Shown: in pieces, positions 4,332-25,635 of the stretch
Layout of the letters: each line of letters begins with the position of its first letter
How positions within the stretch are numbered: position 1 is the stretch's first letter
From: Candidatus Collierbacteria bacterium
GTDB lineage: Bacteria > Patescibacteriota > Microgenomatia > UBA1400 > JACPES01
Assembly: GCA_016183365.1 (NCBI GenBank)
Contig: JACPES010000003.1
Location: 233,467-269,050, forward strand
Direction of reading: 5' to 3'
DNA: 35,584 bases
Notes under the pieces: generated by a model
Seen by the model: the letters and a program-made list of their open reading frames with translations, nothing else
What the model was told of the DNA's origin: nothing
Databases searched by the model: none
Program-made: the position numbers and the translations under genes

Positions 4332-6695
4332 ATGGCTATATTGATCAAAAGACCAGGCTCCATTATTGTCCATCACTCCAAGCAATATCCGGTAGTGGCT
4401 ATCAGGGAAGGAGTAATTTTTCCCAATACCGAGTCCATATTAACTTTTGGCAGAAAAAGATCGGTGGCGGCAGTTAACGCGGCTTTTAAAAACGACCGAA
4501 AAATAATTTTTGTGTCCCAAAAAAATTCCCGGATCAATGACCCATTAGGGATTGATTTATATTTAGTCGGGACTCTGGGAGAAATCCAGCAAACTTTACA
4601 GGGTAACGATGACGTTAACGCTCTGGTCAGGGGAACTAAAAGAGCCGCAATCTCCAAATGGATAGAAACAGAAGGATATTTAGCGGCAGAGATTTCTGAA
4701 ATTCCCGACGTGATGGAAGACTCGGAAGAAATGGTAGCCCTATCAAGGTTGTTAGCAAGCGAATTCCGTAAAGCGGTAAATTTAGGCAAACCGGTGGAAT
4801 ATTTTACGATGATGAGATTGATGGCCGGACAGGATCCGGCTGAACTTTCAGATCAAATCGCCTCATCTCTGGATATATCGACTAAAGAAAAACAAGCAAT
4901 TTTGGAAATGACTGATGTTAAAGCCCGTTTAATCGAAGTGCGCAAATTTTTAGCTCATGAATTAAAAATTTTAGAAATTGAACATAATATAACTACTAAA
5001 ACAAGAGAGAAAATGGATAAGTCAATGCGCGACGCGGTCTTGAGAGAGCGGATGAAAACTATCCAAAAAGAATTAGGAGAAGATGAGGAAACGGATACGG
5101 AATCCACTGAAATGCTGAAAAAGCTTCAAGACAAGAAATTGCCGGAATTTGCTTTCAAACGGGTAAAAAAAGAAGTCGACAAACTCAAGAAAATGCATAT
5201 TCACAACCCCGAACGCGGCTATTTAACCAGTTGGATTGAAACGGTTTTGGACATGCCCTGGATCGAAAGAACTCCCAATGATGTGGAGATCAAAAACGCC
5301 AAAAAGATTTTAGATACAGAGCACTTCGGTTTGGATGAAGTCAAGGACCGGATTTTGGAATATCTGGCGGTAATGCAGTTAAGAAACAAAAAAGAGCAGC
5401 CTCAAACAGGGGTAACGCCGACGATTTTGTGTTTTGTCGGGCCGCCCGGAGTCGGCAAAACCAGTATCGGTAGATCCATCGCCCACGCGTTAAACCGTAA
5501 ATTTGTCAAGATCAGTTTGGGCGGAATTCGCGACGAGGCCGAGATTCGCGGCCACCGCCGGACTTACGTCGGGGCGATGCCGGGACGGATCATCCGGGGG
5601 ATGAAAACCGCCGGCACGATTAATCCGGTATTTATGCTGGATGAACTGGATAAAGTCGGGGCCGATTTCCGCGGCGACCCGTCGGCGGCTTTATTGGAGG
5701 CTTTGGATCCGGAACAGAACAAAGAATTTGAAGATCACTATCTGGATATGCCGTACGATTTATCCGAGGTGATTTTTATTACTACGGCTAATGTGCTTGA
5801 CACTATTCCGCCGGCTCTGCGGGACCGGTTGGAAATTATCCGTTTTCCCGGTTATACCGTAAACGAGAAATATCACATTGCCGAAGATCATTTATGGCAG
5901 AAATCTCTGGGCGATAACGGGTTGACGGCGGAGAAAGTCAATATGCCGCCGGTGTTGATCAAAGACATTATTTCCGGCTACACCCGTGAAGCCGGGGTGA
6001 GAAATCTGGAGCGGGAAATTAGCAAGCTGATGCGGAAAGCCGCCAGGGAAATGGCCGAAGATGTAATCGATAAAGTGGCGGTGACTAAGAAAATTTTGCA
6101 TAAATATCTAGGCCCAATCCGTTTTACCGATACTTTATCGGAGGAAAGAGATGATATCGGGATGGCGACGGGTTTGGCTTGGACCCAGGCCGGCGGCGAG
6201 ATACTATTTATAGAGGTTTCCATCATGCCCGGCAGCGGCAATCTAACTTTGACCGGCCAGTTGGGCGACGTGATGAAAGAATCGGCCCGGGCGGCTTTAT
6301 CCTATGTCAGGAGTCGGTGGCAGGATTTGAAGCTGGAAAAAGATTTTTACAAGAGAATCGATGTTCACATCCATGTCCCGGAAGGGGCGGTCCCCAAGGA
6401 CGGTCCGTCGGCGGGGATCGCCATTACTACAGCTTTGGTGTCGGCGTTGACCGGAAAAGCGACGCGCAAAGATACCGCCATGACTGGTGAGGTCACCCTG
6501 CGGGGTCGGGTGCTGGAAATCGGCGGACTAAAAGAAAAGGCTATAGCCGGCCATCGGGCCGGTATCAGGCGGATTATTATTCCTTACCAAAATAAACGGA
6601 ATTTAGAAAAAATTCCGGCGGAAGTAACTCATGACATTAAATTCTTCCCCGTCCGCTACATGGACGACGTCCTCCGGTTGGCGATGGTGAGCTAA
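4332..6695 (+). CDS. lon: ATP-dependent Lon protease
   Basis: A 787-residue LonA-type protease, close to the usual length. Order: N-terminal substrate domain (about 10-200), coiled coil (200-295), AAA+ module with Walker A G-P-P-G-V-G-K-T (370-377), pore loop T-Y-V-G (411-414), Walker B F-M-L-D-E-L-D (434-440), sensor 2 G-V-R-N-L-E-R (555-561), and protease domain with catalytic Ser693 (P-K-D-G-P-S-A-G) and Lys736 (G-G-L-K-E-K). The 43-residue Ser-Lys spacing equals that of E. coli Lon. It degrades misfolded and regulatory proteins in the cytoplasm. All key residues are present, so it should be active. A second Lon-like gene at 22081-23127 lacks the protease domain. Confidence 0.98.
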   Translation: MAILIKRPGSIIVHHSKQYPVVAIREGVIFPNTESILTFGRKRSVAAVNAAFKNDRKIIFVSQKNSRINDPLGIDLYLVGTLGEIQQTLQGNDDVNALVRGTKRAAISKWIETEGYLAAEISEIPDVMEDSEEMVALSRLLASEFRKAVNLGKPVEYFTMMRLMAGQDPAELSDQIASSLDISTKEKQAILEMTDVKARLIEVRKFLAHELKILEIEHNITTKTREKMDKSMRDAVLRERMKTIQKELGEDEETDTESTEMLKKLQDKKLPEFAFKRVKKEVDKLKKMHIHNPERGYLTSWIETVLDMPWIERTPNDVEIKNAKKILDTEHFGLDEVKDRILEYLAVMQLRNKKEQPQTGVTPTILCFVGPPGVGKTSIGRSIAHALNRKFVKISLGGIRDEAEIRGHRRTYVGAMPGRIIRGMKTAGTINPVFMLDELDKVGADFRGDPSAALLEALDPEQNKEFEDHYLDMPYDLSEVIFITTANVLDTIPPALRDRLEIIRFPGYTVNEKYHIAEDHLWQKSLGDNGLTAEKVNMPPVLIKDIISGYTREAGVRNLEREISKLMRKAAREMAEDVIDKVAVTKKILHKYLGPIRFTDTLSEERDDIGMATGLAWTQAGGEILFIEVSIMPGSGNLTLTGQLGDVMKESARAALSYVRSRWQDLKLEKDFYKRIDVHIHVPEGAVPKDGPSAGIAITTALVSALTGKATRKDTAMTGEVTLRGRVLEIGGLKEKAIAGHRAGIRRIIIPYQNKRNLEKIPAEVTHDIKFFPVRYMDDVLRLAMVS

Positions 6696-7026: not shown

Positions 7027-7064
7027 GTTCTTAACTCCACGCGGCCACGAAGAAAAAAGAGGGA
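7027..7064. repeat. GC-rich palindromic repeat, left copy (degenerate)
   Basis: TTAACTCCACGCGGCC (7031-7046) is the exact reverse complement of 7496-7511, and the match extends leftward to 19 of 20 bases. The right half of this copy (ACGAAGAAAAAAGAG) is a decayed version of the second arm seen intact at 21485-21504. Confidence 0.75.
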
Positions 7065-7100
7065 ACAAGCCAGCACTTATTATATTTCATTTTTTTGTCT

Positions 7101-7798: not shown

Positions 7799-10700
7799 TC
7801 ACTTACTAGTTTGGGAGTCATTACCAATAGGTCTATCGGAAAAGGGCGGGGGAACTTGGGTTGTCGCGCCTTGGATCGGTGAACTAGGTATTCCGTCTGG
7901 CCAGCAATGGAGGCGCCATTCACAGCGGGGACAGTGTTTTTTGACATCAGCAGTTCTGGGAAATTTCAAGTCCAGAATATCTTTCCAAGCTCCCTTAATA
8001 ACTTTTTTCAATTCTTCCACTTCAGTTTCGGAAATTGTAAATCTTTCCTTTTTAAATTTGCCGGTGGTCCGGTCGGGTTCGACAAAATCCAGCTCGCCTT
8101 CGGCAACTGTTAATTTAAAAGTTTGGTCCAAATCAGCCAATAATTTATAAAATACCAATTGCCTTTTATAATCTCCGCTTGATTGGGCAGTCTTGCCCTC
8201 GATTTCAGCGCGGGATTTAGCCGAACCGGTTTTATAGTCAATTACTCTGGCGAATTTACTATCTAAAGCCTCTATTTTATCGATCTTGCCTCCTAAGGGA
8301 ATACCATTTAGAACAATCTTGGAGAATCCATATCCGAAAAATTTTTCAACTTCAAATGGCGGGATAAATTGGCCTTTATAAAAAGATACATATTCTTCCA
8401 AAACATTTAAACCTCTTTTCAACAACCGCCCGTTTTCCATAGTGGTCAGAATTTCTTTACCTAAAGCTGTCTTAAAAGTTGACCGCAGAATGGCAACGGA
8501 GGGTATTTTTTTGTTTTTTTTAAATTCCCGAAAAAATTCTTCCAAAGCCCTGTGGATTGCCGAACCGAACGACATCGGGATGGCTTTAGCCCGAGGGGCG
8601 CGCAATAAATTATTCAGTTTGAATTTATACGGGCAACTTAAATAAGTATTTAAGGCAGTAGGGCTTAATTTTAAGGTGGCAACAATTTCTTGCAAAAATT
8701 TGGATTCCGCTAATGTAGTTTTTTGGAGAGTAGGAACCTTTAGCATGGTTTGCAATATTTCTTTAGCTTGTTGTTCGTATTCCGAAGGATCAATTCTGTC
8801 TAAAAATTTCTCCGGAATTTCAGATAAAAACATGGTTTCGACGCTTTCTTTTTTTCTATGCTCCATTGAGCTGGTAACGGCGGAAGTAATAAATATCCGC
8901 TTTTTTGCCCTGGTCAAGGCCACATAAAATAATCTTCTTTCGTCCTCATTTTTCTCCTTAACGGATAAATCGGTATTGGAAATGATTTCTGTGGGCAGTT
9001 TTATTAATTCCCGAACGACATTGTTTCCCCATTTTCCGTCTATAGCTCTGATAATAAACACAATCGAAAATTCCCGGCCTTTGGCTTTATGGGCGGTTAA
9101 AAGCGATACGGCCCCGGTTTTTATGTCCAGATCTTCTTCATATATAGGAACTTTTTGTTCAATCATCAAATCAATTATTTCCAGAAAGTCCTTAAGGCGC
9201 AGGTTGTGGTTGGCGGAATTTAGCTTTTTAATTTCGGAAAATAAGGAGTTGACGGAGTTTAATTTTTCGATGGCATCAACTGATTTTAAGCACCAATCCA
9301 GAAAGCCGGTTTTATGGATTAATTTTTCAAAAAATAAAGTAAACGGGCCCTCGGCGTCGTCTTGTTGCAATTCAGATAAAACGGAATAAACATTACTTAT
9401 ACTTGTTGGATCCGTCAAACCATGGGGCAGAGAAATTAAAGCCTCCCAAAGCTTAATCTTTTTGTCACTGGCAAAACGGGAGAGTTTCAGAATATCAAGT
9501 TGATCGCAATTGAAAAAAGGCTGATTTAATAAGGTAAATAAATCTACCCCTTCCTGGCCGTTTCTGATCCCTTCAACTGTTTTCATCAGCAAAATTAATT
9601 TTTCAATCACCGGGCGACTCAACACATCCTGCCCGCCTTCCAGATTAAATTGAATGTTGAATTTGGAGAGTATATCTGCCATCTCCATTCCGTCACTGCG
9701 GTTGCGGAAAATGACCGCGATATCTTCCGGATTCTCACCCCCATTAATTAATTTTTGAATCTCCTTAGCGGCGAAAAATAGTTCGACTGCGGAAGACGAG
9801 AATCTGGCCACCTGAATTTTTTCAACCGGGCTATTGAGAACCGAACGCAATTTTTTTTCAACTTGGGGAAGAGAATTAACCAGTGATAGCCGGTTACGGG
9901 TGATAACTTCTCTCCCGGCATCTAAAATTAATTGTTGGGAGCGGTAGTTTTCTGATAGGACCACGATCTCTGCCTTTTTAAATAATTTATGAAAAGATAA
10001 GATATTTTCAATTGAAGCTCCTTGAAAGCGGAAGATGGCCTGATCATCGTCTCCGACCACGAAAAGATTGGCGTTTTGGCCCCAATAGGACGAAAGGTGC
10101 AGCAAGAGCGCGTTTTGGGCGGCGTTGGTGTCCTGATATTCGTCGACCAGGATGTATAGGAATTTTTCCTGATGCTCCAGTAAAAGATCCTTATCTTGGT
10201 TAAAGGCTTGGGTGACAAAAGAAATCATGTCTTCAAAATCATAGCGGTTTAATTTTTTTAATTCCGAATTGTAATCCCGGTAAACTTTAACCAAGTCCAG
10301 ATTTCTTTGAAAATATTTATCGTTTTGATCCGCAGGCGGATTTCCGGCTAAAAGTTTTTCAAACCCTTCCGGGCTTATGCCTTCTCTTTTAAGATTAGCG
10401 ATAGACGCGACTAAATCGCGGATATAAAGATAGGGCGCTCCGTGGGGACGGATGATTTTATAATCGCCTTTATCAATTAAAGTCCTGAACAGGCCGGCCC
10501 GTTCCAAGTCTGACAACGGCTCCAATTGGCCCATTGACTGGAAAATATCCGGCCGGCTTTGAATAACGTTTGAACAAAATGAATGGAAAGTTTGGATGTT
10601 AACGTAGTAGGCGGTCGGGCCAATAGCTTTGACCAATCTTTCCCGCATTTCCCGGGCGGCGGCGTCGGTAAATGTCAAAGCCAAAATCCCATTAGGCGGG

Positions 10701-15166: not shown

Positions 15167-15790
15167 ACGAAACGACAACGAGACATGTTGTCCATTATTT
15201 ATAACTACATTAAAGACACAGGGTATCCTCCAACTTTTGAAGAAATGAGGGTGTTGCTTGGAGTTTCTTCCAATCAGTCCGTTATTGATCTTCTGAATCA
15301 TCTTGAGAAAAAGAAAGTAATTAAAAGAAACGAATCGGCGGCTCGCGGTATCGCCATTTTACCGCTGGGATATGATGCTTTGGAAGAAAAACCTCTAGTT
15401 CCATTTTTAGGTATGAGCCACACCGGTGCTCCAATTGATGTTTTTGAAATTGAAGGAGAATGGCGCCCACTCTCCGGTGAAGTTGCCAAATCTTCCAACG
15501 ATATCTTTTTACTGAAAATATCAGGTGATTCCATGATCAACGCCGGAATTGATCATGGAGACAAGGTGCTAGTGGAAGTACGAAAAGAATTTAGCACTGG
15601 CGACATTGTCTTAGCGGACGTTGAGGGCAAATCAACAGTTAAACGGTTTATTTCTGATGATCACCCGCCATTCGTATATTTGAAACCGGAGAATCCTAAT
15701 TATCCGATCATCCCCTTTACTCACAAAATGCGACTGGTTGGGAAAGTCGTTTCCATTCTTAAACAAGGACAGTGGAAAGGAGCAAATTAA
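15152..15790 (+). CDS. lexA: LexA-type repressor (S24 autopeptidase)
   Basis: A 212-residue protein of LexA length. The N-terminal winged helix is typical (T-K-R-Q-R-D-M-L-S-I-I-Y, G-Y-P-P-T-F-E-E-M-R, then S-N-Q-S-V-I-D-L-L-N-H-L). The C-terminal peptidase has Ser127 in S-G-D-S-M and Lys164 in S-T-V-K-R-F, 37 residues apart as in E. coli LexA. The self-cleavage site reads H-T-G-A-P, a Thr91-Gly92 bond where Ala-Gly is usual. LexA represses SOS genes until RecA-ssDNA triggers cleavage. The stop lies 2 nt before the restriction-methylation gene, so the pair is probably one transcript. Whether it is the genomic LexA or a local controller of the restriction system is not decidable here. Confidence 0.9.
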   Translation: MDLLLTKRQRDMLSIIYNYIKDTGYPPTFEEMRVLLGVSSNQSVIDLLNHLEKKKVIKRNESAARGIAILPLGYDALEEKPLVPFLGMSHTGAPIDVFEIEGEWRPLSGEVAKSSNDIFLLKISGDSMINAGIDHGDKVLVEVRKEFSTGDIVLADVEGKSTVKRFISDDHPPFVYLKPENPNYPIIPFTHKMRLVGKVVSILKQGQWKGAN

Positions 15791-15792
15791 AA

Positions 15793-17751
15793 ATGCCAAC
15801 AATCAAGCCAAACAAGTCAGAAGAAATAATAGGAAAAATATTTAAAAATCTGGGGAATGTGTATGGCCTCAAAGAATTTGAGAACTTGCAGATTCCAGAC
15901 GTCCTCACAATTACCGAAGAAGAATCAAAAAGATATTATATCAAAGACTTGAAGTCGGGAAATAAAAAATTCGTGTACGACGAGAAAAAGCTTAACGGCA
16001 AACCAGAAGAAATCATCAGGCAACTCTGGCTGTATAAACTGCACGCGCACTACCGATATCCGCTAGAGAGGATCGAGACGGAAAAATCCATCCACTTCGG
16101 ATCAAAAGAATATGCCCGAGCGGATATTGTCGTGTTCAAAAACGACAAAATTACTCCCTACATCATCGTCGAGGTCAAAATTCCCGCGGAAAAGAAAGGC
16201 GTCGAACAACTTAAAAGTTACCTGTCGGCGGAAGGCTCTGAAATCGGAGTTTGGTCAAACGGAAATAGCCGCGTTATCCTCTATCGGCCATATCCAAGAG
16301 AATTTCAACGGGATTCATTGAGCGATCTTCCACGGGCAAATCAGACCATTGATGACCTATTCGAGGTTAAGAAGACATGGAACGAATTAACACCAAAGTT
16401 TGATTTTGTAGAACGCGTGAAGCGGATCGAAGAATTGGCGTTGGCAGGTTCTGGTGCCAACGTCTTTGAAGAAATTTTCAAACTCATCTATGCCAAACTC
16501 TATGATGAAAAAATTGCCCGCCAGCGGCGTGAAAATCAGGAAGTCATCTTTCGAAAATACAAAGAGCCGGAAAAAACTTATGAGGTCATCAACGGACTAT
16601 TCCGGGACGCCATCCATGAGTGGCCTGATACTTTCGAACTTTCAGACAAAATCAGGCTAAGTCCTGCCAGATTGAGTATTTGCGTCCCATTCCTGGAAGA
16701 CATCCGTTTTTTCGAGCTTGGTCAGGGAGAATATGAAATTGTCGACAGCGCGTTTGAATATCTGATCACGGAAGTATCAAGGGGCAAGAAGGGGCAATAT
16801 TTTACTCCCCGCCACGTCATCAAAATGTGCGTAAAGATGTTTAATCCAAATCTAGATGAATACATCATTGACCCTGCCTGCGGCTCCGGAGGATTTCTGT
16901 TACACACGATGTACCACGTCTGGGAAAAACACCTTAGAACCGAGGCCGCGCAGAAAAGTTACGCCGGAAAATATCTCTTTGGTGTTGATTTTGACGACAA
17001 TATGCGTCGGATTTCCCAAGCGCTGATGCTGATTGCCGGCGACGGCAAACATCACATTTTCAAACGAGATTCTCTGGATGGTCGGGAATGGGTTGGAGAC
17101 GACGCGGAAGACGCGCGAGTGCAGCTGCGATCACTCCTTAAACATTCCGATAACTCCGAAAGCGAGAGAGAAAACAAACTTACCTACCGGCACCTAAGTT
17201 TCGATATTTTATTCACAAATCCGCCATTTGCCGGCGAAAATCCCGATTCGGGCATTTTACGCCAATATGAACTGGCGAAAAAAGATGGAAAGCTGCGGAA
17301 CAACGTCGAGCGCCATATCCTGTTTATCGAGAGATCTCTTGATGCGGTGCGCCCTGGTGGTAGGCTAGCTATCGTCCTTCCCCAAGGCGTCCTGAACAAC
17401 ACGAATATGGACTACATTCGTAACTATCTTTTCGAGAAAGCAAGAATTTTGGCGGTCGTCGGACTTCACGGCAATACTTTTAAACCCCATACCGGGACTA
17501 AAACATCAGTTTTGTTTCTCCAGAAGTGGGACGGAGAACCACTCAAGGATTATCCAATCTTTATGGCGGTCTCAAAAAAACCCGGAAAAGATAACTCCGG
17601 CGAATACGTCTATAAAAAAGATAAAAACGGAAACTATCTGTCCGATAGCCACGGACGCAAAGTCCTCGACCACGACCTCGACGAAATCACGGACAAATTC
17701 ATCGAATTTGCAAAAGAGCATGAATTGAGTTTTTGGAGGAGGGGATTCTAA
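15793..17751 (+). CDS. Restriction nuclease-adenine methyltransferase fusion (BcgI-A-like / HsdM type)
   Basis: A 652-residue fusion. Residues about 70-170 form an HsdR-N-like nuclease domain with a PD-(D/E)XK core: R-A-D-I-V-V-F (Asp111) and I-I-V-E-V-K (Glu127, Lys129). Residues about 220-600 are a type I-style N6-adenine methylase with the SAM motif D-P-A-C-G-S-G-G (360-367) and catalytic N-P-P-F (476-479). No helicase or translocase motifs are present and no separate hsdR follows, so this is the BcgI-like arrangement: one polypeptide that cuts and methylates, plus a specificity subunit. BcgI-A itself is of similar size. ATG 15793 is chosen over an in-frame ATG at 15772 because GGAAAGGAG lies about 10 nt upstream and the earlier start would overlap lexA. 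Confidence 0.88.
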   Translation: MPTIKPNKSEEIIGKIFKNLGNVYGLKEFENLQIPDVLTITEEESKRYYIKDLKSGNKKFVYDEKKLNGKPEEIIRQLWLYKLHAHYRYPLERIETEKSIHFGSKEYARADIVVFKNDKITPYIIVEVKIPAEKKGVEQLKSYLSAEGSEIGVWSNGNSRVILYRPYPREFQRDSLSDLPRANQTIDDLFEVKKTWNELTPKFDFVERVKRIEELALAGSGANVFEEIFKLIYAKLYDEKIARQRRENQEVIFRKYKEPEKTYEVINGLFRDAIHEWPDTFELSDKIRLSPARLSICVPFLEDIRFFELGQGEYEIVDSAFEYLITEVSRGKKGQYFTPRHVIKMCVKMFNPNLDEYIIDPACGSGGFLLHTMYHVWEKHLRTEAAQKSYAGKYLFGVDFDDNMRRISQALMLIAGDGKHHIFKRDSLDGREWVGDDAEDARVQLRSLLKHSDNSESERENKLTYRHLSFDILFTNPPFAGENPDSGILRQYELAKKDGKLRNNVERHILFIERSLDAVRPGGRLAIVLPQGVLNNTNMDYIRNYLFEKARILAVVGLHGNTFKPHTGTKTSVLFLQKWDGEPLKDYPIFMAVSKKPGKDNSGEYVYKKDKNGNYLSDSHGRKVLDHDLDEITDKFIEFAKEHELSFWRRGF

Positions 17752-17801: not shown

Positions 17802-19148
17802 ATGATTAACTACTCCGTAATTCAAAAGTCTCAACTCGAAGGCGCGCAGCGGCTAGATGCAGAATATTATCAACCGGAGTATTTGGAAAAAGAGAAAAGA
17901 TTAAAAAACCTTGCGACGATTAAGTTGGGGAAAATAGCTTACATAACAGATGGTGAACATGGGTCTCCAGTTTGGGACGAAAAGAGTGGAATAAAATATT
18001 TCTCTGCAAAGCATGTCAAAGATGGAATTATAGATAATTCTGACATTCAAACAATTTCAAAAATTATTGATGATAGAAATAAAAGATCGAGATTACAAGA
18101 GGGCGATATTTTACTATCGACAGTTGGTACAGTAGGTTATGCAGGCATTGTAACGACGAATGCATTACCCGCCAATATAGATAGGCATGTAGCCAGAATA
18201 GCTCTCCACCCCAATACCCTTGATCCTGAGTTTTTGGTTGCTTTCTTAAACTCCACTTACGGAAGATTCCAAACCACACGACAAGCAACTGGCAATGTGC
18301 AATTAAACTTATTCTTGGAGAAAATCCAAGAACTTTATGTACCAAAATCTAATAATATACAGGTATCAAAATTAGTTAAAGCTGCCCTACAAGAATTAGA
18401 CAGGTCAGAAAAATTATACTCCCAAGCAGAAATTTTGCTTTTGGAGGAGTTGGGGCTGAGAGATTTTAAAATTCTCGAAGATTTGTCGTTCATCGTGAAT
18501 TTTTCGGAAGTGAAAAACGCCCATCGAATGGATACAGATTATTTCCATCCAAAATATGAGATTCTCGAATCTAAACTGAAAAGACACGGAGCGAAAACAT
18601 TTGAAGAAGTAATCATGAATGTTCCGGCAACCTTTAATCCTTTGGCAAAACCGGACGATCTATTCAAGTACGTAGAACTTGCAAACATAAATTCTTCTAT
18701 CGGAGTTATAGACGGATACGAAGAATTGTTAGGTAAAGAAGCTCCGAGTAGAGCCAAAAGGATATTGAAACGAAGTGACGTAGTTGTTCCGAGTGTGGAA
18801 GGATCACTTGAGAAGGTTGCTTTAGTCGATAGCGCACAAGAAGGTTATTTAGCGTCAACGGGTTTTTTTCAATTAAGAAGTAAAGAAATATTACCGGAAG
18901 CGCTTTTGGTATTAGCCGGTAGCGTCGTTTTTCAGATGCAATTAAAAAAGCGTTGCGCTGGAACAATTTTGACTGCTGTTCCAAAAGAGTCAATCTCTAA
19001 CATATTAATTCCCTCTTTATCTATCGAGACACAGCAAAAAATTGCTGTCTTGGTTTGCCGATCTCACGATGCGCGCAAGAAATTTAAAGATCTGCTCGAA
19101 GAAGCCAAGAGAAAAGTTGAGGAAATGATTGAGAAAGGGAGTGATTAA
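17802..19148 (+). CDS. hsdS: Restriction-modification specificity subunit (HsdS)
   Basis: A 448-residue specificity protein with two target-recognition domains. Each half opens with the same signature: A-Q-R-L-D-A-E-Y-Y-Q-P-E-Y near residue 12 and A-H-R-M-D-T-D-Y-F-H-P-K-Y near residue 240. Helical spacers follow each domain (L-x-x-S-E-K-L-Y-S-Q-A and the C-terminal A-R-K-K-F-K-D-L-L-E-E-A). It selects the bipartite DNA target for the upstream nuclease-methylase; the target cannot be predicted. No Shine-Dalgarno site sits at the usual distance; GAGGAG lies about 28 nt before the ATG. The gene looks complete. Confidence 0.9.
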   Translation: MINYSVIQKSQLEGAQRLDAEYYQPEYLEKEKRLKNLATIKLGKIAYITDGEHGSPVWDEKSGIKYFSAKHVKDGIIDNSDIQTISKIIDDRNKRSRLQEGDILLSTVGTVGYAGIVTTNALPANIDRHVARIALHPNTLDPEFLVAFLNSTYGRFQTTRQATGNVQLNLFLEKIQELYVPKSNNIQVSKLVKAALQELDRSEKLYSQAEILLLEELGLRDFKILEDLSFIVNFSEVKNAHRMDTDYFHPKYEILESKLKRHGAKTFEEVIMNVPATFNPLAKPDDLFKYVELANINSSIGVIDGYEELLGKEAPSRAKRILKRSDVVVPSVEGSLEKVALVDSAQEGYLASTGFFQLRSKEILPEALLVLAGSVVFQMQLKKRCAGTILTAVPKESISNILIPSLSIETQQKIAVLVCRSHDARKKFKDLLEEAKRKVEEMIEKGSD

Positions 19149-19277: not shown

Positions 19278-20927
19278 TCAGACTTCAATGATGACCGGGA
19301 GGATCATCGGGTTGCGGTTGGTTCTATGGAAAAAGAAATCCTGTAAGCGGCCGGCGATTTCGTCTCTTGTGTTTCTAAAATCGGCTTTTGCGGATTGTTT
19401 AAATAAATATTCCTCCACCAATTTTTGGGCTTCGCCGAATAAATCTTGGGATTGTTTCATGAATACAAATCCGCGGCTGACCAACTCAACTTTTCCGGCC
19501 AATTTACCGGTTTTCTGTTCCAGCTGGAGAATGACGACCACGATGCCGTCTTTAGCCATAGCTTGGCGGTCCCGCAGAACCACCGGACCAACGTCTCCAA
19601 CTCCGTATCCATCAACCATAATATTTTTCAATTGGATAGTTGCACCGATTTTGGCTGTCTGGGGATTTTCCAAGGCCAGGGTTTGACCGTTGTCGAGAAC
19701 GAAAACGTTTTTTTCCGGGTGGCCTAATTTAACCGCCAATTTCCGGTATTGGATCATATGCCGGTAAGTTCCGCCGATCGGCATCAGATATTTTGGTTTG
19801 ACCAGTTCCATTAATAACATCAGTTCGCCGGAGGAAGCGTGACCGGAGACGTGAAGATTATCGTTTATATCCGGATAAACCACGTCAATTCCCATCAGGC
19901 TTAGGGCATCGATAGTGGCATAGACCGCGGTTTCATTGCCGGGGATCGGGTCGGAAGAAAAAACCACTTTGTCGCCGGCTTTTAATTTCACAAAATCGTG
20001 TTCCTCGGCCGCGGCCCTGACCAAGCTGGATCCGGTTTGGCCTTGGGATCCGGCGATAATTATGCACAGCTGATTATCCGGAAACCTGTGAATGTCGCGC
20101 TTATCGATAATTCCCTGACGCGGCAGATTAAACATATGAAGTGTAGACGCATCTTTGATATTTTGTTCGATTGACCGGCCGATAAAGGCAATTTTCCGGC
20201 CTCGGGACATGGCCACGGTAACCGCCTGCTGGATGCGGTGAACGTTAGAGCTCATGGTGGTGACGATGAATTTTCCCCTAGCGGTCCGGATTTCTCTTTC
20301 AAAACTGTCGGACAGGGTTTGTTCCGACAATGAGAAGCCTTCTTTTTCGCTTCTTAAGCTGTCGGATAATAAAACCGAGATGCCTTTTTGGCTGAACTCG
20401 GCGATTTTTTGCAGGTCGGGTTTAACTCCGTCAATCGGGGTCAGGTCGATTTTGAAATCAGAGCCGTGGTAAACGTTTCCTTCCGGGGTGGAAATTACCA
20501 GATGCCGGGTATCCGGAATAGAGTGGGTCAGGCGGATTGAGTTGACAGTAAACGGCCCCAATTTTAAAGACTGGTTGTAATCCAATATGGAAATCCGTTT
20601 GTTAATTTGGAATTCCCGGATTCGGGATTCGGCAAAAGCGGCGGTCAGAGGACTGCCGAATATCGGGAAATGGTCGCCCAATCGGGGGAGAATATACGGT
20701 AGACCGGCAATATGGTCATCGTGGCCGTGGGTTAGAATCATGCCGACGATTTGATCAATTTTGTTTTCTAAATAGGAAATATCCGGAATCAGCAAGTCTA
20801 CTCCCGGCATATTTTCATCGGGGAAACCAATGCCGCAGTCTACTAGCAAGACTTTGCCTTGGGTTTCATAGGCGAACATGTTCCTGGTGACATTTCCCAT
20901 TCCGCCGAGGGGGATAATTTTTAACAT
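19278..20927 (-). CDS. rnj: Ribonuclease J
   Basis: A 549-residue metallo-beta-lactamase/beta-CASP ribonuclease of normal length. The metal-binding motif T-H-G-H-D-D-H is at 66-72, H-S-I-P-D and G-S-D-F-K follow, and the beta-CASP part contains S-D-P-I-P-G-N-E and V-S-G-H-A-S. RNase J is a 5'-to-3' exonuclease and endonuclease that matures and degrades RNA in bacteria lacking RNase E. With the pnp gene a few kb away it supplies the core of RNA decay. A possible -10 TATGAT lies at 20952-20947, 19 nt before the ATG; no Shine-Dalgarno site is clear. It converges with the lexA-restriction operon; no terminator is seen between them. Confidence 0.96.
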   Translation of the reverse strand: MLKIIPLGGMGNVTRNMFAYETQGKVLLVDCGIGFPDENMPGVDLLIPDISYLENKIDQIVGMILTHGHDDHIAGLPYILPRLGDHFPIFGSPLTAAFAESRIREFQINKRISILDYNQSLKLGPFTVNSIRLTHSIPDTRHLVISTPEGNVYHGSDFKIDLTPIDGVKPDLQKIAEFSQKGISVLLSDSLRSEKEGFSLSEQTLSDSFEREIRTARGKFIVTTMSSNVHRIQQAVTVAMSRGRKIAFIGRSIEQNIKDASTLHMFNLPRQGIIDKRDIHRFPDNQLCIIIAGSQGQTGSSLVRAAAEEHDFVKLKAGDKVVFSSDPIPGNETAVYATIDALSLMGIDVVYPDINDNLHVSGHASSGELMLLMELVKPKYLMPIGGTYRHMIQYRKLAVKLGHPEKNVFVLDNGQTLALENPQTAKIGATIQLKNIMVDGYGVGDVGPVVLRDRQAMAKDGIVVVILQLEQKTGKLAGKVELVSRGFVFMKQSQDLFGEAQKLVEEYLFKQSAKADFRNTRDEIAGRLQDFFFHRTNRNPMILPVIIEV

Positions 20928-20983: not shown

Positions 20984-21012
20984 TTGACCAAAAAGATTAA
21001 CTGTGGTTGAAT
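20984..21012 (+). promoter_or_regulatory. Promoter of the 13-residue-repeat protein, leaderless
   Basis: TTGACC (20984-20989), 17-nt spacer, TTGAAT (21007-21012), then 6 nt to ATG 21019. This is the same -10-to-start geometry as alaS and lexA. Confidence 0.5.
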
Positions 21013-21018
21013 AGGATT

Positions 21019-21387
21019 ATGACCGCTAAACAAGACTTTAAACAGATAGAGAAACTGTTGAAAGATTATCCGACAAGAAAAGAGTTGTATAAAAAGCTAG
21101 ACGATTATCCAACCAGAGAAGAGTTATACAAAAAATTAGATGAGTACCCAAAAAGAGAAGAGCTTTATAAGCATTTAGATCTTCTCGGAAAAGCGTTGTC
21201 GGAAAAGATTGACAATAGCCTGAAGGATTATCCGACCAAAGATGAACTTTTTAAGCGTTTAGATCACATTGTCGGAGAATTGGAAACCATTAGGACTGAA
21301 CAATTAATCTTGACTCATAGCCAAACTGAACATGAAAGCAGATATAACCATACCCCCTTGCAGAGCATTACTCCCGTAGCTTCGTAA
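21019..21387 (+). CDS. Hypothetical protein with 13-residue tandem repeats
   Basis: A 122-residue soluble, highly charged protein. Three adjacent repeats of the form D-D-Y-P-T-R-E-E-L-Y-K-K-L occupy residues 15-53, and a fourth (K-D-Y-P-T-K-D-E-L-F-K-R-L) is at 69-81. Each contains a helix preceded by Y-P, so a rod of short helices or a coiled coil is likely. No enzyme motif or membrane segment is seen. Similar repeat-bearing small proteins occur in CPR genomes without known function. The C-terminal 20 residues (H-T-P-L-Q-S-I-T-P) lose the pattern, so the gene may be truncated. ATG 21019 is preferred over an upstream TTG because that TTG is part of the -10 box. Confidence 0.65.
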   Translation: MTAKQDFKQIEKLLKDYPTRKELYKKLDDYPTREELYKKLDEYPKREELYKHLDLLGKALSEKIDNSLKDYPTKDELFKRLDHIVGELETIRTEQLILTHSQTEHESRYNHTPLQSITPVAS

Positions 21388-21863: not shown

Positions 21864-22106
21864 ATGAAACGAAAAAAATTAACCATACCAAAATTTTCAT
21901 CTATCCAAAAAGAAGCCCGATTTTGGGATACTCACGACGCGACTGATTATTTTGACCAAATGGAAGACGTCAAGGCGAAGTTTGTGTTAAAATCGCCCAA
22001 AGCCGAGAGTGTAACAATCAGGTTGCAGCCGGAAATAAAACGCCGATTAGTAAAAGCGGCCAAAAAATGGGGGGTAAGTTTTACCACTCTCCCATATAAT
22101 GCTTGA
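21864..22106 (+). CDS. BrnA/CopG-like antitoxin, C-terminally truncated
   Basis: An 80-residue protein with the family features I-P-K-F-S-S, then F-W-D-T-H-D-A-T-D-Y-F-D, then the CopG-type DNA-binding strand and helix V-T-I-R-L-Q-P-E-I-K-R-R-L-V-K-A-A-K-K-W-G-V-S-F-T-T-L. Antitoxins of this kind neutralise a BrnT-type ribonuclease and repress their own promoter. Relatives continue for some ten more residues after T-T-L; here only P-Y-N-A follows before the stop, so the end is lost. GGAGGT at 21848-21853 is its Shine-Dalgarno site. The last 26 nt overlap the convergent Lon-like gene, and the truncation point falls there. The partner toxin is a remnant, so this is probably an orphan. Confidence 0.6.
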   Translation: MKRKKLTIPKFSSIQKEARFWDTHDATDYFDQMEDVKAKFVLKSPKAESVTIRLQPEIKRRLVKAAKKWGVSFTTLPYNA

Positions 22107-23127
22107 AATTGTCTTTGGTGACATGAATCGGTTGGTTTTGGCCGGAAACGATATCCATAGCGGCTTTCCGGGATAAGCCTTGAATTGTTCGTTGCAGGGT
22201 TCTAATTCCGGCATCAAATCCTAATGGTCTAACTATCAGAGGCCAGGCGTCATTGTCGAAAATCAAAGCCTCGGCCGGGATGCCGGCTTCCTGGCGGGCT
22301 TGGGGAAGAAGATAATCTTTGGCAATGATAATTTTTTGGTCATCGGTGTAGCTTGGCATACTCAATGGTTCCAGTCTATCCATAACGGCGGTGGCAATAT
22401 TATTAGTATTGTTAGCAGTAGCGATAAAAACCACTTCCGATAAATCCAATGGCACGTCCAGATAATGGTCTAAAAACGCCTTGTTTTGCTCCGGGTCCAG
22501 CAATTCAACTAATACTCCCATAATATCATGGCGAGCTTCGTCGGCTACTCTGTCCAGCTCATCCAAGAGCATAATAGGATTTTTAACCCCGGCAAGTTTT
22601 AAGCCTTTAACTACTTGTCCGGGTTCAGCCTCTGAATGCAGCCGTGATTGGCCGCGCAAGTCCCGAGCTGATCCCATACCCCCGAAAGGAATCCTGACTA
22701 TAGGTCGATTTAAGGCTTGGGCGATGGAATAGGCCAAAGTGGTTTTTCCGGTTCCCACCAGTCCGACCAGCAGGAGAATAGGGGCCCGGGCATGACCAAT
22801 TTGGACGTTAGGCGTTTGGCGAAGTTTCATGACCGCCAGATATTCTAAAATTCTTACTTTTATCTCGTCTAAACCGTAGTGATTGCGGTCCAGAATTTGT
22901 TTGGCGCGTGATAAATCCAATGGAGATAAGACCCGGTTTTCCCACGGAAGAGCGGTAATCCAATCTATCCAGCGGATAGTCATATCGGCTTCCAAAGTAT
23001 AATCTCGGCCGGAGAGTCGGGTTAAACGTTCAATTTGGCCGGCGGCTTTTTCCTGAATCGGTTTGGGAAGATGAGCCGCCGAAACACGGTTGTTGAGAAT
23101 AGCTATTTCTTCGAGCAGGCTAGGCAT
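22081..23127 (-). CDS. Lon-like AAA+ ATPase lacking the protease domain
   Basis: A 348-residue protein that aligns along its length with the middle of Lon (roughly residues 265-595 of the lon product here). It keeps the helical segment (W-I-D-W-I-T-A-L-P-W), Walker A G-L-V-G-T-G-K-T (122-129), Walker B M-L-L-D-E (186-190), sensor 1 T-A-N-N, the arginine finger region M-D-R-L-E and sensor 2 G-I-R-T-L-Q-R. The substrate domain and the whole Ser-Lys protease domain are absent. The pore loop reads R-L-H-S-E-A-E-P-G where Lon has R-T-Y-V-G-A-M-P-G. ATG 23127 is chosen because homology starts there and it lies 1 nt after the pnp stop; an in-frame start at 23220 would overlap pnp. Position suggests co-expression with rpsO and pnp. 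Confidence 0.85.
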   Translation of the reverse strand: MPSLLEEIAILNNRVSAAHLPKPIQEKAAGQIERLTRLSGRDYTLEADMTIRWIDWITALPWENRVLSPLDLSRAKQILDRNHYGLDEIKVRILEYLAVMKLRQTPNVQIGHARAPILLLVGLVGTGKTTLAYSIAQALNRPIVRIPFGGMGSARDLRGQSRLHSEAEPGQVVKGLKLAGVKNPIMLLDELDRVADEARHDIMGVLVELLDPEQNKAFLDHYLDVPLDLSEVVFIATANNTNNIATAVMDRLEPLSMPSYTDDQKIIIAKDYLLPQARQEAGIPAEALIFDNDAWPLIVRPLGFDAGIRTLQRTIQGLSRKAAMDIVSGQNQPIHVTKDNFKHYMGEW

Positions 23128-23128
23128 A

Positions 23129-25378
23129 TTATCGTCCGCGATCGTAACCGGAGCGGCCCCGGCGTTGGTCGCCGAATGATTCCCGGCGCCTGAAATTAGA
23201 ATCCGGACGTCTGTCTCCACCGCCGAAATATCCTCCTGACGGAGTTGATCCGGCCGGCCGCCGCCCAGAAGGCATGTTCTGCCCGGCCGGGGCTGTCAAC
23301 GGGGTAACCGGAACTAAATTTATCCGATCCTGATCGTCGACTTCGGCCACTTTTACTTTCAAATTGTCGCCTTCTTTGACTACGTCTTCGGGGTGGTTAA
23401 GATAACCGGTGGCTAATTTACTGATATGAATCAGGCCGTCTTTGCCGGGCAGAATATTCACAAAAACTCCGAACGGCACGATCCGGACTATTTTCCCGTC
23501 ATATTCTTTACCGATTTCGGCTTCTTCGGTTAGGCCTTTGACCCAGTCGATGGCTTTTTGGACTCCGGCTTCATCCGTCCCGGAAATTGTCACCGTTCCG
23601 TCGTCTTCAACGTCAACTTGGGCTCCGGTTTCAGCGATAATCCGTCGAATAATTTTGCCCCCCGGCCCGATTATCCCGCCGATTTTTTCCGGATCAATTT
23701 GAACCACAGAGATTTTGGGGGCAAATTTGGATATTTTGAGATTCGGAGAAGGTTGCATTGCTATCATTTTTCCCAAAATAAACATCCGGCCGTCCTTGGC
23801 CTGTGCCAAAGCTTTTTCCAATATTTCAAAAGAGATGCCTTTAACTTTAACGTCCATTTGCATGGCGGTAATCCCTTTTTCGGTCCCGGCCACCTTAAAA
23901 TCCATATCGCCCTTGAAATCTTCCAAACCGATAATATCCGAGAGGATAGCGGTTTTATCGTTTTCAATAATCAGCCCCATGGCAATTCCAGCTACAGGCG
24001 CCAGTATCGGGACCCCGGCATCCATTAAAGCTAAAGTTGAGCCGCAAACGCTGGCCATTGAGGTCGAACCATTGCCGGACATAATTTCCGAGACTACCCT
24101 GATAGTGTAGGGGAATTGGGTTTTTGAAGGAATTACCGGAACTAAAGCCCGTTCTGCCAGCGCTCCGTGGCCGATTTCCCGACGGCTGGGCCATCCCAAT
24201 CGTCCGGTTTCGCCGATAGAAAAAGGCGGCATATTGTAATGATGGATATAGTGTTTAACGACTTCAGATTCCGGCGATTCAAGCAATTGTCCGCTAGCCG
24301 GAGAGGCTAAAGTGACGATTGACAGAGCTTGGGTGCTGCCGCGCTGGAACATGGCCGATCCGTGAGTTCGGGGGAGTTCGCCGACTCTGACGGTAATCTG
24401 TCGAATTTCGTCTAATTTCCGGCCGTCCGGCCGAATGCTCTTATCTACGATTTGTTCTCTTATAAGTTGATAGATAGCCTTATTTAAAGCTGCGGAAGCT
24501 AATATCGGATCGATGATGCCTTCTTTTTCAGATATGGCCGTCACCAATTCATTGATGTCGCTATCCGATTCTTTGGTGGCCATACCCTTAATGGCTTCTA
24601 ACAGTTCTTTGATGTATTTCTTTTTAAGAACTTTAGAAATTTTAACCATTTCAGTTTCGTCCGGTAAAGTAAACTTCATATCCTTAGTCCCGACTTTTTG
24701 TTTTAATTCGGAAATTCCGGCTATGATCCGGTTTATTTCACCTTCGGCGAATTTCATCCCGGAAAGAACGATGGTTTCGGACACCTGATTGGCTCCGGCT
24801 TCGACCATATGAATTCCGTCCTTGGTTCCGGAAACTATCAAGTCCAGATCGGAATATTGGCGGTCCTGATGGGTAGGATTGGCCACAAAAGTACCGGTGC
24901 CGTTTTGAGAAACATATCCGATTCTGACCGATCCGACAGGTCCTGCAAACGGTAATCCGGAAATGGATAAGGCAGCGGCAGTGGCGATAATCGCGGTCAT
25001 ATCCGGGTCGTTCTCGCCGTCCACTGACAAAGTAGTGATAATAATTTGAATTTCCCGCCGAAATGATTTGGGGAAAAGAGGTCTGATGGATCTGTCGATC
25101 AAACGGCTGGTCAGAATGGCCTCGTCCGAGGACCGGCCTTCGCGTTTGACCCAGCGGCTGCCCTTGATTTTGCCTCCGGCGTAAAGCTTTTCCTGATACT
25201 CGACCATCAAAGGCAAATAGTCGATTTCCGGGTTTTCCCGGCCGACGGAAACCGCGGCAAAAACTAAAGTATCGCCTAATCTGGCCGTAACCGCGGCCGT
25301 AGCCTGTTCCCCGTATCTGCCGGTTTCCAAGATAATCTGTCGGTTGTCTGACAGGGTAATGGTGGTATTTAAAATCAC
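23129..25378 (-). CDS. pnp: Polyribonucleotide nucleotidyltransferase (PNPase)
   Basis: A 749-residue PNPase: two RNase PH cores, the KH domain (I-G-G-I-I-G-P-G-G-K-I-I-R-R-I, about 560-575) and the S1 domain (Y-D-G-K-I-V-R-I-V-P-F-G-V-F-V, about 630-690). The tail is Gly/Arg/Asp-rich (G-Y-F-G-G-G-D-R-R and R-R-R-E-S-F), which may add RNA affinity. The enzyme degrades RNA 3'-to-5' by phosphorolysis. It starts with GTG: the sequence CTGTGATT gives the rpsO stop TGA inside GTGA, a 4-nt overlap implying translational coupling. rpsO-pnp is a classical pair; a Lon-like ATPase follows 1 nt later. Confidence 0.97.
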   Translation of the reverse strand: MILNTTITLSDNRQIILETGRYGEQATAAVTARLGDTLVFAAVSVGRENPEIDYLPLMVEYQEKLYAGGKIKGSRWVKREGRSSDEAILTSRLIDRSIRPLFPKSFRREIQIIITTLSVDGENDPDMTAIIATAAALSISGLPFAGPVGSVRIGYVSQNGTGTFVANPTHQDRQYSDLDLIVSGTKDGIHMVEAGANQVSETIVLSGMKFAEGEINRIIAGISELKQKVGTKDMKFTLPDETEMVKISKVLKKKYIKELLEAIKGMATKESDSDINELVTAISEKEGIIDPILASAALNKAIYQLIREQIVDKSIRPDGRKLDEIRQITVRVGELPRTHGSAMFQRGSTQALSIVTLASPASGQLLESPESEVVKHYIHHYNMPPFSIGETGRLGWPSRREIGHGALAERALVPVIPSKTQFPYTIRVVSEIMSGNGSTSMASVCGSTLALMDAGVPILAPVAGIAMGLIIENDKTAILSDIIGLEDFKGDMDFKVAGTEKGITAMQMDVKVKGISFEILEKALAQAKDGRMFILGKMIAMQPSPNLKISKFAPKISVVQIDPEKIGGIIGPGGKIIRRIIAETGAQVDVEDDGTVTISGTDEAGVQKAIDWVKGLTEEAEIGKEYDGKIVRIVPFGVFVNILPGKDGLIHISKLATGYLNHPEDVVKEGDNLKVKVAEVDDQDRINLVPVTPLTAPAGQNMPSGRRPAGSTPSGGYFGGGDRRPDSNFRRRESFGDQRRGRSGYDRGR

Positions 25379-25635
25379 AGTTTAACTTCTTTCAACAGAG
25401 TGGAATAGCGTCCGGCTGACTTGAACTTAAGATAGTTTAACAGCCGGCGGCGTTTGGCCACCATTTTAATCAGTCCCCTGCGGGTATGGTTGTCTTTGGC
25501 GTGTTTGGCTAAATGGGAGGCGACTGCCGCTATTTTTTGTTGCAGTAAGCCGGTTTGGACTTCCGGACTGCCGGTATCCCCCTTGCCTCTCCCGAATTTA
25601 TTGATAATTTTTTGCTTGGTATCCTTATTTAACAT
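25375..25635 (-). CDS. rpsO: Ribosomal protein S15
   Basis: An 86-residue uS15, near the normal 89. Key features are F-G-R-G-K-G-D-T-G-S-P-E-V-Q (early), L-A-K-H-A-K-D-N-H-T-R-R-G-L (middle) and V-A-K-R-R-R-L-L-N-Y-L-K. It binds the 16S rRNA three-way junction and nucleates assembly of the small subunit platform. It precedes pnp with a 4-nt overlap. The 5' region holds TATAAT at 25696-25691 and TATATT at about 25649-25644, either of which could be the -10 box. Confidence 0.98.
   Translation of the reverse strand: MLNKDTKQKIINKFGRGKGDTGSPEVQTGLLQQKIAAVASHLAKHAKDNHTRRGLIKMVAKRRRLLNYLKFKSAGRYSTLLKEVKL

Follow-up and report, generated by a model that had tools for sequence, protein, structure and literature searches.

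The window, i.e., the whole stretch of 35,584 nucleotides that was analysed, encodes a stand-alone Lon-type AAA+ ATPase next to pnp and, in another part and on the other strand, a complete lon. The ATPase gene was recognised from its open reading frame (ORF), from Pfam and NCBIfam profiles and from an AlphaFold2 model. The genes of interest are the following.

4332-6695, plus strand: complete lon, a paralogue (LON_substr_bdg, AAA, Lon_lid and Lon_C by Pfam)
19278-20927, minus strand: rnj (RNase J; RNase_J_b_CASP and RNase_J_C), downstream of the ATPase gene and 1.15 kb from it
22081-23127, minus strand: stand-alone Lon-type AAA+ ATPase gene, 348 aa
22813-23127, minus strand: N-terminal helical region of the ATPase (residues 1-105), corresponding to the Lon helices that immediately precede AAA; it aligns with 7p6u from Lon residue 247 onwards
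23129-25378, minus strand: pnp (PNPase), upstream neighbour, by profile match
25375-25635, minus strand: rpsO, a conserved neighbour that overlaps pnp by 4 nt

The ATPase ORF extends from an ATG at 23127 to a stop at 22081; with the pnp stop at 23129, the gap after pnp is 1 nt, as the earlier note had stated together with the presence of a full lon elsewhere. That note had described the protein as a Lon paralogue without a substrate domain or a Ser-Lys protease, and the Pfam search of the 348 residues agrees: it returned AAA and Lon_lid only, and neither the LON substrate-binding domain PF02190, present in the true Lon of the window, nor the Lon_C Ser-Lys protease domain. The NCBIfam lon profile TIGR00763 is matched at positions 256-570 of 795, which leaves out the N-domain and the protease, and the score of 322 bits is below the curated cut-off of 608. 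The AlphaFold2 monomer (pLDDT 93.4, pTM 0.88) has helices at residues 4-17, 22-37, 45-59, 72-82 and 87-103 of the N-terminal region. All 50 PDB fold matches listed for this model are Lon proteins, and for 6n2i, the isolated AAA+ domain of Lon, the alignment spans almost the full length with a TM-score of 0.88/0.90. The only two relatives in the source genome are the stand-alone ATPase and the complete Lon.

Several other features surround the gene. At its 3' end, the ATPase gene is overlapped by the end of an oppositely oriented CopG-type antitoxin ORF (PF12441; 21864-22106, plus strand). Between the ATPase gene and rnj lies a coil-like protein with repeated Y-P-T-R/K-E-E-L-Y-K (21007-21387, plus strand), which a congener retains (L111, 10894-11280, minus strand). 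A type I restriction R-protein N-terminus fused to an N-6 DNA methylase (15772-17751, plus strand) is followed by a specificity-like subunit (17802-19148). In the same congener, the 3'-terminal 48 nt of the ATPase gene including the stop (7027-7074) are repeated 1.5 kb downstream (8528-8575; 41/48 identical); the repeats flank an insert with a 401-aa ATPase, and the same repeat is found in L012. Compared to the gene end in the window, the displaced copy matches at 41/48 and the present end at 37/48 positions, which would fit the integration of an element at this end of the gene, with the element providing the replacement end.

Conservation of individual residues was assessed in 99 family members and compared to 86 Lons, for the following features of the ATPase, all on the minus strand.

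22741-22764: Walker A, G122-LVGTGK-T129 (G122, G125, G127, K128 and T129 in 99/99)
22618-22644: pore loop 1, R162-LHSEAEP-G170, with H164 at the Lon Tyr position by alignment with Lon
22558-22569: Walker B, L187-LD-E190 (D189 and E190 in 99/99)
22522-22545: pore loop 2, A195-DEARHD-I202, with A198 at the Lon F/M/Y position by alignment with Lon
22486-22497: inter-subunit signalling motif, D211-P-E-Q214 (D, P and Q in 99/99)
22411-22413: sensor 1, N239 (99/99)
22375-22377: arginine finger, R251 (99/99)
22201-22203: sensor 2, R309 in R-P-L-G-[FY]-D-A-G-I-R (R309 in 99/99)
22084-22098: C-terminal tail, YMGEW; in the family mostly [YF]-[LIVM]-P-x-[WY]-COOH

In Lon, substrates are threaded by the aromatics of loops 1 and 2, while DPEQ couples the subunits; in LONP1, this motif occupies residues 612-615 and pore loop 2 carries Y599 (PMC12994072). 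A staircase of the pore-loop residue Y402 has also been described for Lon (PMC8835725). The motor elements that the earlier note had listed as kept, i.e., Walker A (G-x-x-G-x-G-K-T across the family), Walker B, sensor 1 and sensor 2, proved invariant in all 99 members. So are R251 and D-P-x-Q, a pattern of conserved residues that suggests a hexameric AAA+ ring.

The pore loops follow a different rule. Pore loop 1 of the window protein reads S-R-L-H-S-E-A-E-P-G, compared to R-[RK]-T-Y-[IV]-G, or nearly so, in 86/86 Lons. An aromatic residue is present here in 31/98 family members versus 86/86 Lons; at the Lon Tyr position, the 99 members have F (22), H (22), Y (9), N (8), L (8), Q (5), R (5) and others. 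The Gly of Lon is replaced by D or E in 78/99 members, and the M/L that follows by E (E168) in 97/99. Thus, the earlier statement that the pore-loop aromatic is missing holds for the window protein, with H164, but not throughout the family, in which 31/98 keep F or Y. A second loss had been overlooked: in pore loop 2, a bulky hydrophobic residue (F/M/Y/I/W) occurs in 1/99 members versus 80/86 Lons, the grip position being taken by A/G/S/K/T and similar residues. No member has both grips, and 67 have neither. Conversely, E168, K174, M203, W295, P301, G303 and D305 are newly conserved in the family. The C-terminal residue is W, Y or F in 53/99 members and the tail is five residues long in 52/99, typically [YF]LPx[WY].

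Judging from these residues, a motor in which the ATP cycle and subunit coupling are strictly selected while the grips vary freely does not resemble a processive threader; members that keep F or Y in loop 1 may thread weakly. The expectation that the protein should not degrade proteins as Lon does is supported by the lack of the protease, the N-domain and canonical pore grips. By these tests, it is outside the Lon protease family, though it comes from the same AAA+ stock. The ORF length is 338-442 aa in all 99 members, all of which end at the boundary between the AAA and protease domains of Lon; the earlier note had named a homologue with an in-frame protease as evidence against its proposal, and there is none among them.

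The closest named relative of the ATPase is found in Candidatus Collierbacteria (84%), followed by Woesebacteria, Levybacteria and other Microgenomates. In the order of the source, 87 of 88 genomes have matches, nearly all to a stand-alone ORF of ~350-390 aa, with a score clearly higher than that of the Lon ORF encoded separately in the genome concerned. In the class Microgenomatia, ~335 of 374 sampled genomes carry the ATPase, as counted by hand from matches beyond E 1e-107, a level that is not passed by Lon. Three complete or near-complete genomes of the class have no full-scoring copy (G123, G178, G243) and represent natural losses. A phylum-wide draw of 380 genomes included 348 from other classes of Patescibacteria; at least 62 of these carry the ATPase, mostly in frames of ~340-450 aa. 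Among the best GTDB contig matches outside Patescibacteria, there was no stand-alone form, all being frames of Lon length (582-987 aa). Viral spread was considered and rejected: IMG/VR matches with a readable pore loop have the Lon-type T-Y-V/I, and nearly all are frames of 541-969 aa. Similarly, the search for a defence system (PADLOC) gave weak P-loop matches only, the best being to IetA (1.1e-06, over 60 residues).

A search for the Lon protease domain in 51 ATPase carriers outside the class found 48 without any Lon; the exceptions are G426, G432 and G457. Five genomes of the class, chosen for having a single match, are also without Lon, and so is G557, a single contig that is 99% complete and has the ATPase. 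The absence of Lon from 48/51 tested carriers outside the class indicates that the ATPase lives independently of Lon, and a heteromer with Lon was rejected for the same reason, since Lon cannot be required.

For the phylogeny, we used 57 stand-alone proteins (each family represented by one, f71 by two) together with 21 patescibacterial and 20 other Lons. The stand-alone ATPases form one side of a single branch (SH-aLRT 99), apart from the 41 Lons, and 28 columns are invariant over the 57 divergent members. Between the window genome and a congener, dN/dS (Nei-Gojobori method) is 0.048 for the ATPase, 0.050 for pnp, 0.040 for rnj, 0.020 for nusA and 0.104 for lon, values that are good to the order of magnitude only because dS is near saturation (1.1-1.6). 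The ATPase family has a single ancient origin, is under purifying selection and is conserved at the depth of the phylum. Consequently, a lack of conservation combined with relaxed selection, which the earlier note had considered a sign of decay, does not apply. It should be noted that the proteins of family f71 (L094 and L095) form a deeply split branch of the ATPase family (branch length 1.19), in genomes of 1.4-2 Mb; the f71 genome searched for Lon_C (G457) has two full Lons besides the ATPase.

The gene neighbourhood was surveyed at 99 loci from 56 families. On the same strand and up to four genes upstream, pnp is found at 58/99 loci, and rnj up to four genes downstream at 66/99; one or both are nearby at 74/99 loci (44/56 families), and both at 50 loci (32 families). 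The median gaps amount to 25 and 24 nt. The common order is rpsO-pnp-AAA-(UDG)-rnj-ftsK, where UDG is a family-4 uracil-DNA glycosylase. The order rpsO-pnp-AAA, the conservation of which had been proposed as a check, is thus widely kept; that rnj usually lies just downstream had not been part of the earlier claims. Keeping the gene with RNA-decay genes in 44/56 families is the gene-order pattern expected of an RNA degradosome component. The gene is elsewhere in 12/56 families. In f21, rnj was not found and the ATPase remains near pnp, so RNase J is not strictly required. The pnp-UDG-rnj cluster is also present in Patescibacteria that have no ATPase; therefore, the cluster either predates the ATPase or does not depend on it, and the adjacency may be inherited rather than functional. 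Co-occurrence was rejected as evidence because nearly all genomes have pnp (363/380) and rnj (369/380), which makes presence patterns uninformative.

Many patescibacterial PNPases have long Arg/Gly-rich C-termini (e.g., residues 690-749 of the PNPase in the window; L101, L109 and L266). Such tails are common beside the ATPase and were absent in a first, biased sample of 20 PNPases from ATPase-less genomes; they are present in a second sample, of genomes chosen mostly for long PNPases. The tail was rejected as a specific partner, since ATPase-less genomes have it too. At a number of loci (L084, L100, L212-L214, L216-L218 (f90), L081, L087, L088, L094 and L095), pnp is followed by the gene of a zinc-ribbon protein that in many cases has an apparent membrane segment, and in several families this gene lies between pnp and the ATPase gene. 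A shorter zinc-ribbon gene lies between pnp and UDG in ATPase-less genomes (L273, L278-L280, L283 and L288). It is possible that the zinc-ribbon protein is a membrane anchor for PNPase. A motif search for Nudix genes found scattered cases and no regular part of the cluster.

The protein is most likely a hexameric, non-proteolytic remodelling or switch ATPase of the Lon type, as far as its sequence can tell; a working ring ATPase that has no proteolytic function appears highly probable. A fuller reading, in which a Lon-derived AAA+ ring ATPase has permanently lost proteolysis and the canonical pore grip and remodels or clamps an operon partner, has in our judgement an even chance. Judging from gene order, a main client within the RNA-decay/ribosome neighbourhood, as guessed in the earlier note, falls a little short of this. 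The proposed mechanism has three parts: (i) the ATPase would form a hexamer and cycle ATP in a coordinated way; (ii) the ATP cycle would remodel or clamp a partner, as a switch or a chaperone, instead of threading polypeptides to destruction; (iii) clients would be recognised via the N-terminal helices, the acidic face of the pore loop or the conserved [YF]LPx[WY] tail, the likeliest being proteins of its own operon, i.e., PNPase, RNase J and possibly the ribosome or RNP particles. In a more specific version, which we regard as unlikely, the hexamer would dock by its [YF]LPx[WY] tails on the pseudo-hexameric PNPase ring (or on RNase J) and use ATP to gate or remodel the bound enzyme. If true, an RNA-decay machine would have a subunit of the Lon AAA+ type, a non-proteolytic role for the Lon motor that we did not find in the papers searched.

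A somewhat unlikely alternative is a general protein chaperone, i.e., a Lon AAA+ module kept for protease-independent folding, with an RNA-decay neighbourhood that is historical. Indeed, the ATPase of LONP1 alone supports folding (PMC12994072), the gene lies near groES/groEL (groESL) at two loci (L103, L122) and after yidC-jag-rplY at four (L086, L089, L093, L097), and the nearly universal pnp and rnj do not tie the ATPase to either by their profiles. However, loss of the pore grip would be odd in a polypeptide chaperone, and 44/56 families keep the gene by pnp or rnj across class-level divergence. It is improbable that the protein is a DNA-repair ATPase and a partner of the neighbouring UDG, although UDG is immediately downstream at 36/99 loci (18 families) and follows the ATPase gene where both pnp and rnj are absent (e.g., L077, L083, L099, L223, L224 and L227; families f127 and f100). 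The pnp-UDG-rnj cluster occurs without the ATPase, many ATPase loci, including the window, have no UDG nearby, and the acidic pore loop 1 does not suggest a path for DNA. Very improbable is a split Lon, i.e., an unfoldase that docks via its C-terminal tail onto a separately encoded protease. The conserved [YF]LPx[WY] tail does end exactly at the domain boundary, but both pore grips are degenerate, and a search of 68 genomes for a free S16 protease domain found none, which contradicts a partner of this type; besides Lon, there were only weak matches (up to 45 bits) in frames of ~270-570 aa, a size typical of RadA/ComM-like proteins. A decaying or dispensable lon duplicate, with which the shorter length, the two missing domains and the absence from some complete genomes would agree, is refuted by the dN/dS of 0.048, the 28 invariant columns over 57 members and the one ancient clade.

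With a Lon-derived remodelling or clamping ATPase as the preferred reading, the locus presents an old, conserved and unstudied ATPase in ~1-Mb genomes that retain little of no use, and one that survives in many genomes where Lon is gone. It is a natural experiment on what a Lon motor does when it has neither the protease nor the pore-loop grips. With this one protein, once purified, and its neighbours from the operon, a possible connection of AAA+ machines to RNA decay in bacteria can be put to a direct test.

We found no paper in the open-licence literature that joins Patescibacteria or Microgenomates with this ATPase, and no earlier description of the protein in the open-access papers searched, the closest being LonC and the chaperone function of LONP1. 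Compared to the LonA protease (endopeptidase La, MEROPS S16, TIGR00763), the ATPase shares the AAA+ core, the Lon lid, the pre-AAA helices and the fold, at 36-42% identity; LonA differs in its LON substrate-binding domain, Ser-Lys protease and intact pore loops, whereas the ATPase has none of these and forms a separate clade. The PNPase partners in known RNA degradosomes, RhlB, CshA and Suv3, resemble it as ATP-dependent proteins linked to PNPase/RNase J, a link that here is one of gene order; they are RecA-fold helicases, whereas the present ATPase is an AAA+ protein of the Lon type. LonC, as described (PMC3391209), is likewise a Lon relative minus half of the machine, and its loss is the mirror image: the protease is kept and ATP-powered unfolding is lost, the reverse of the present protein, which has retained the ATPase and not the protease. 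LONP1/Pim1 has a documented ATPase-dependent, protease-independent chaperone activity and is thus similar in an ATPase-driven function without proteolysis; that activity, however, belongs to a full-length Lon that keeps its pore-loop tyrosines (PMC12994072), whereas in the family described here the motor is a separate gene.
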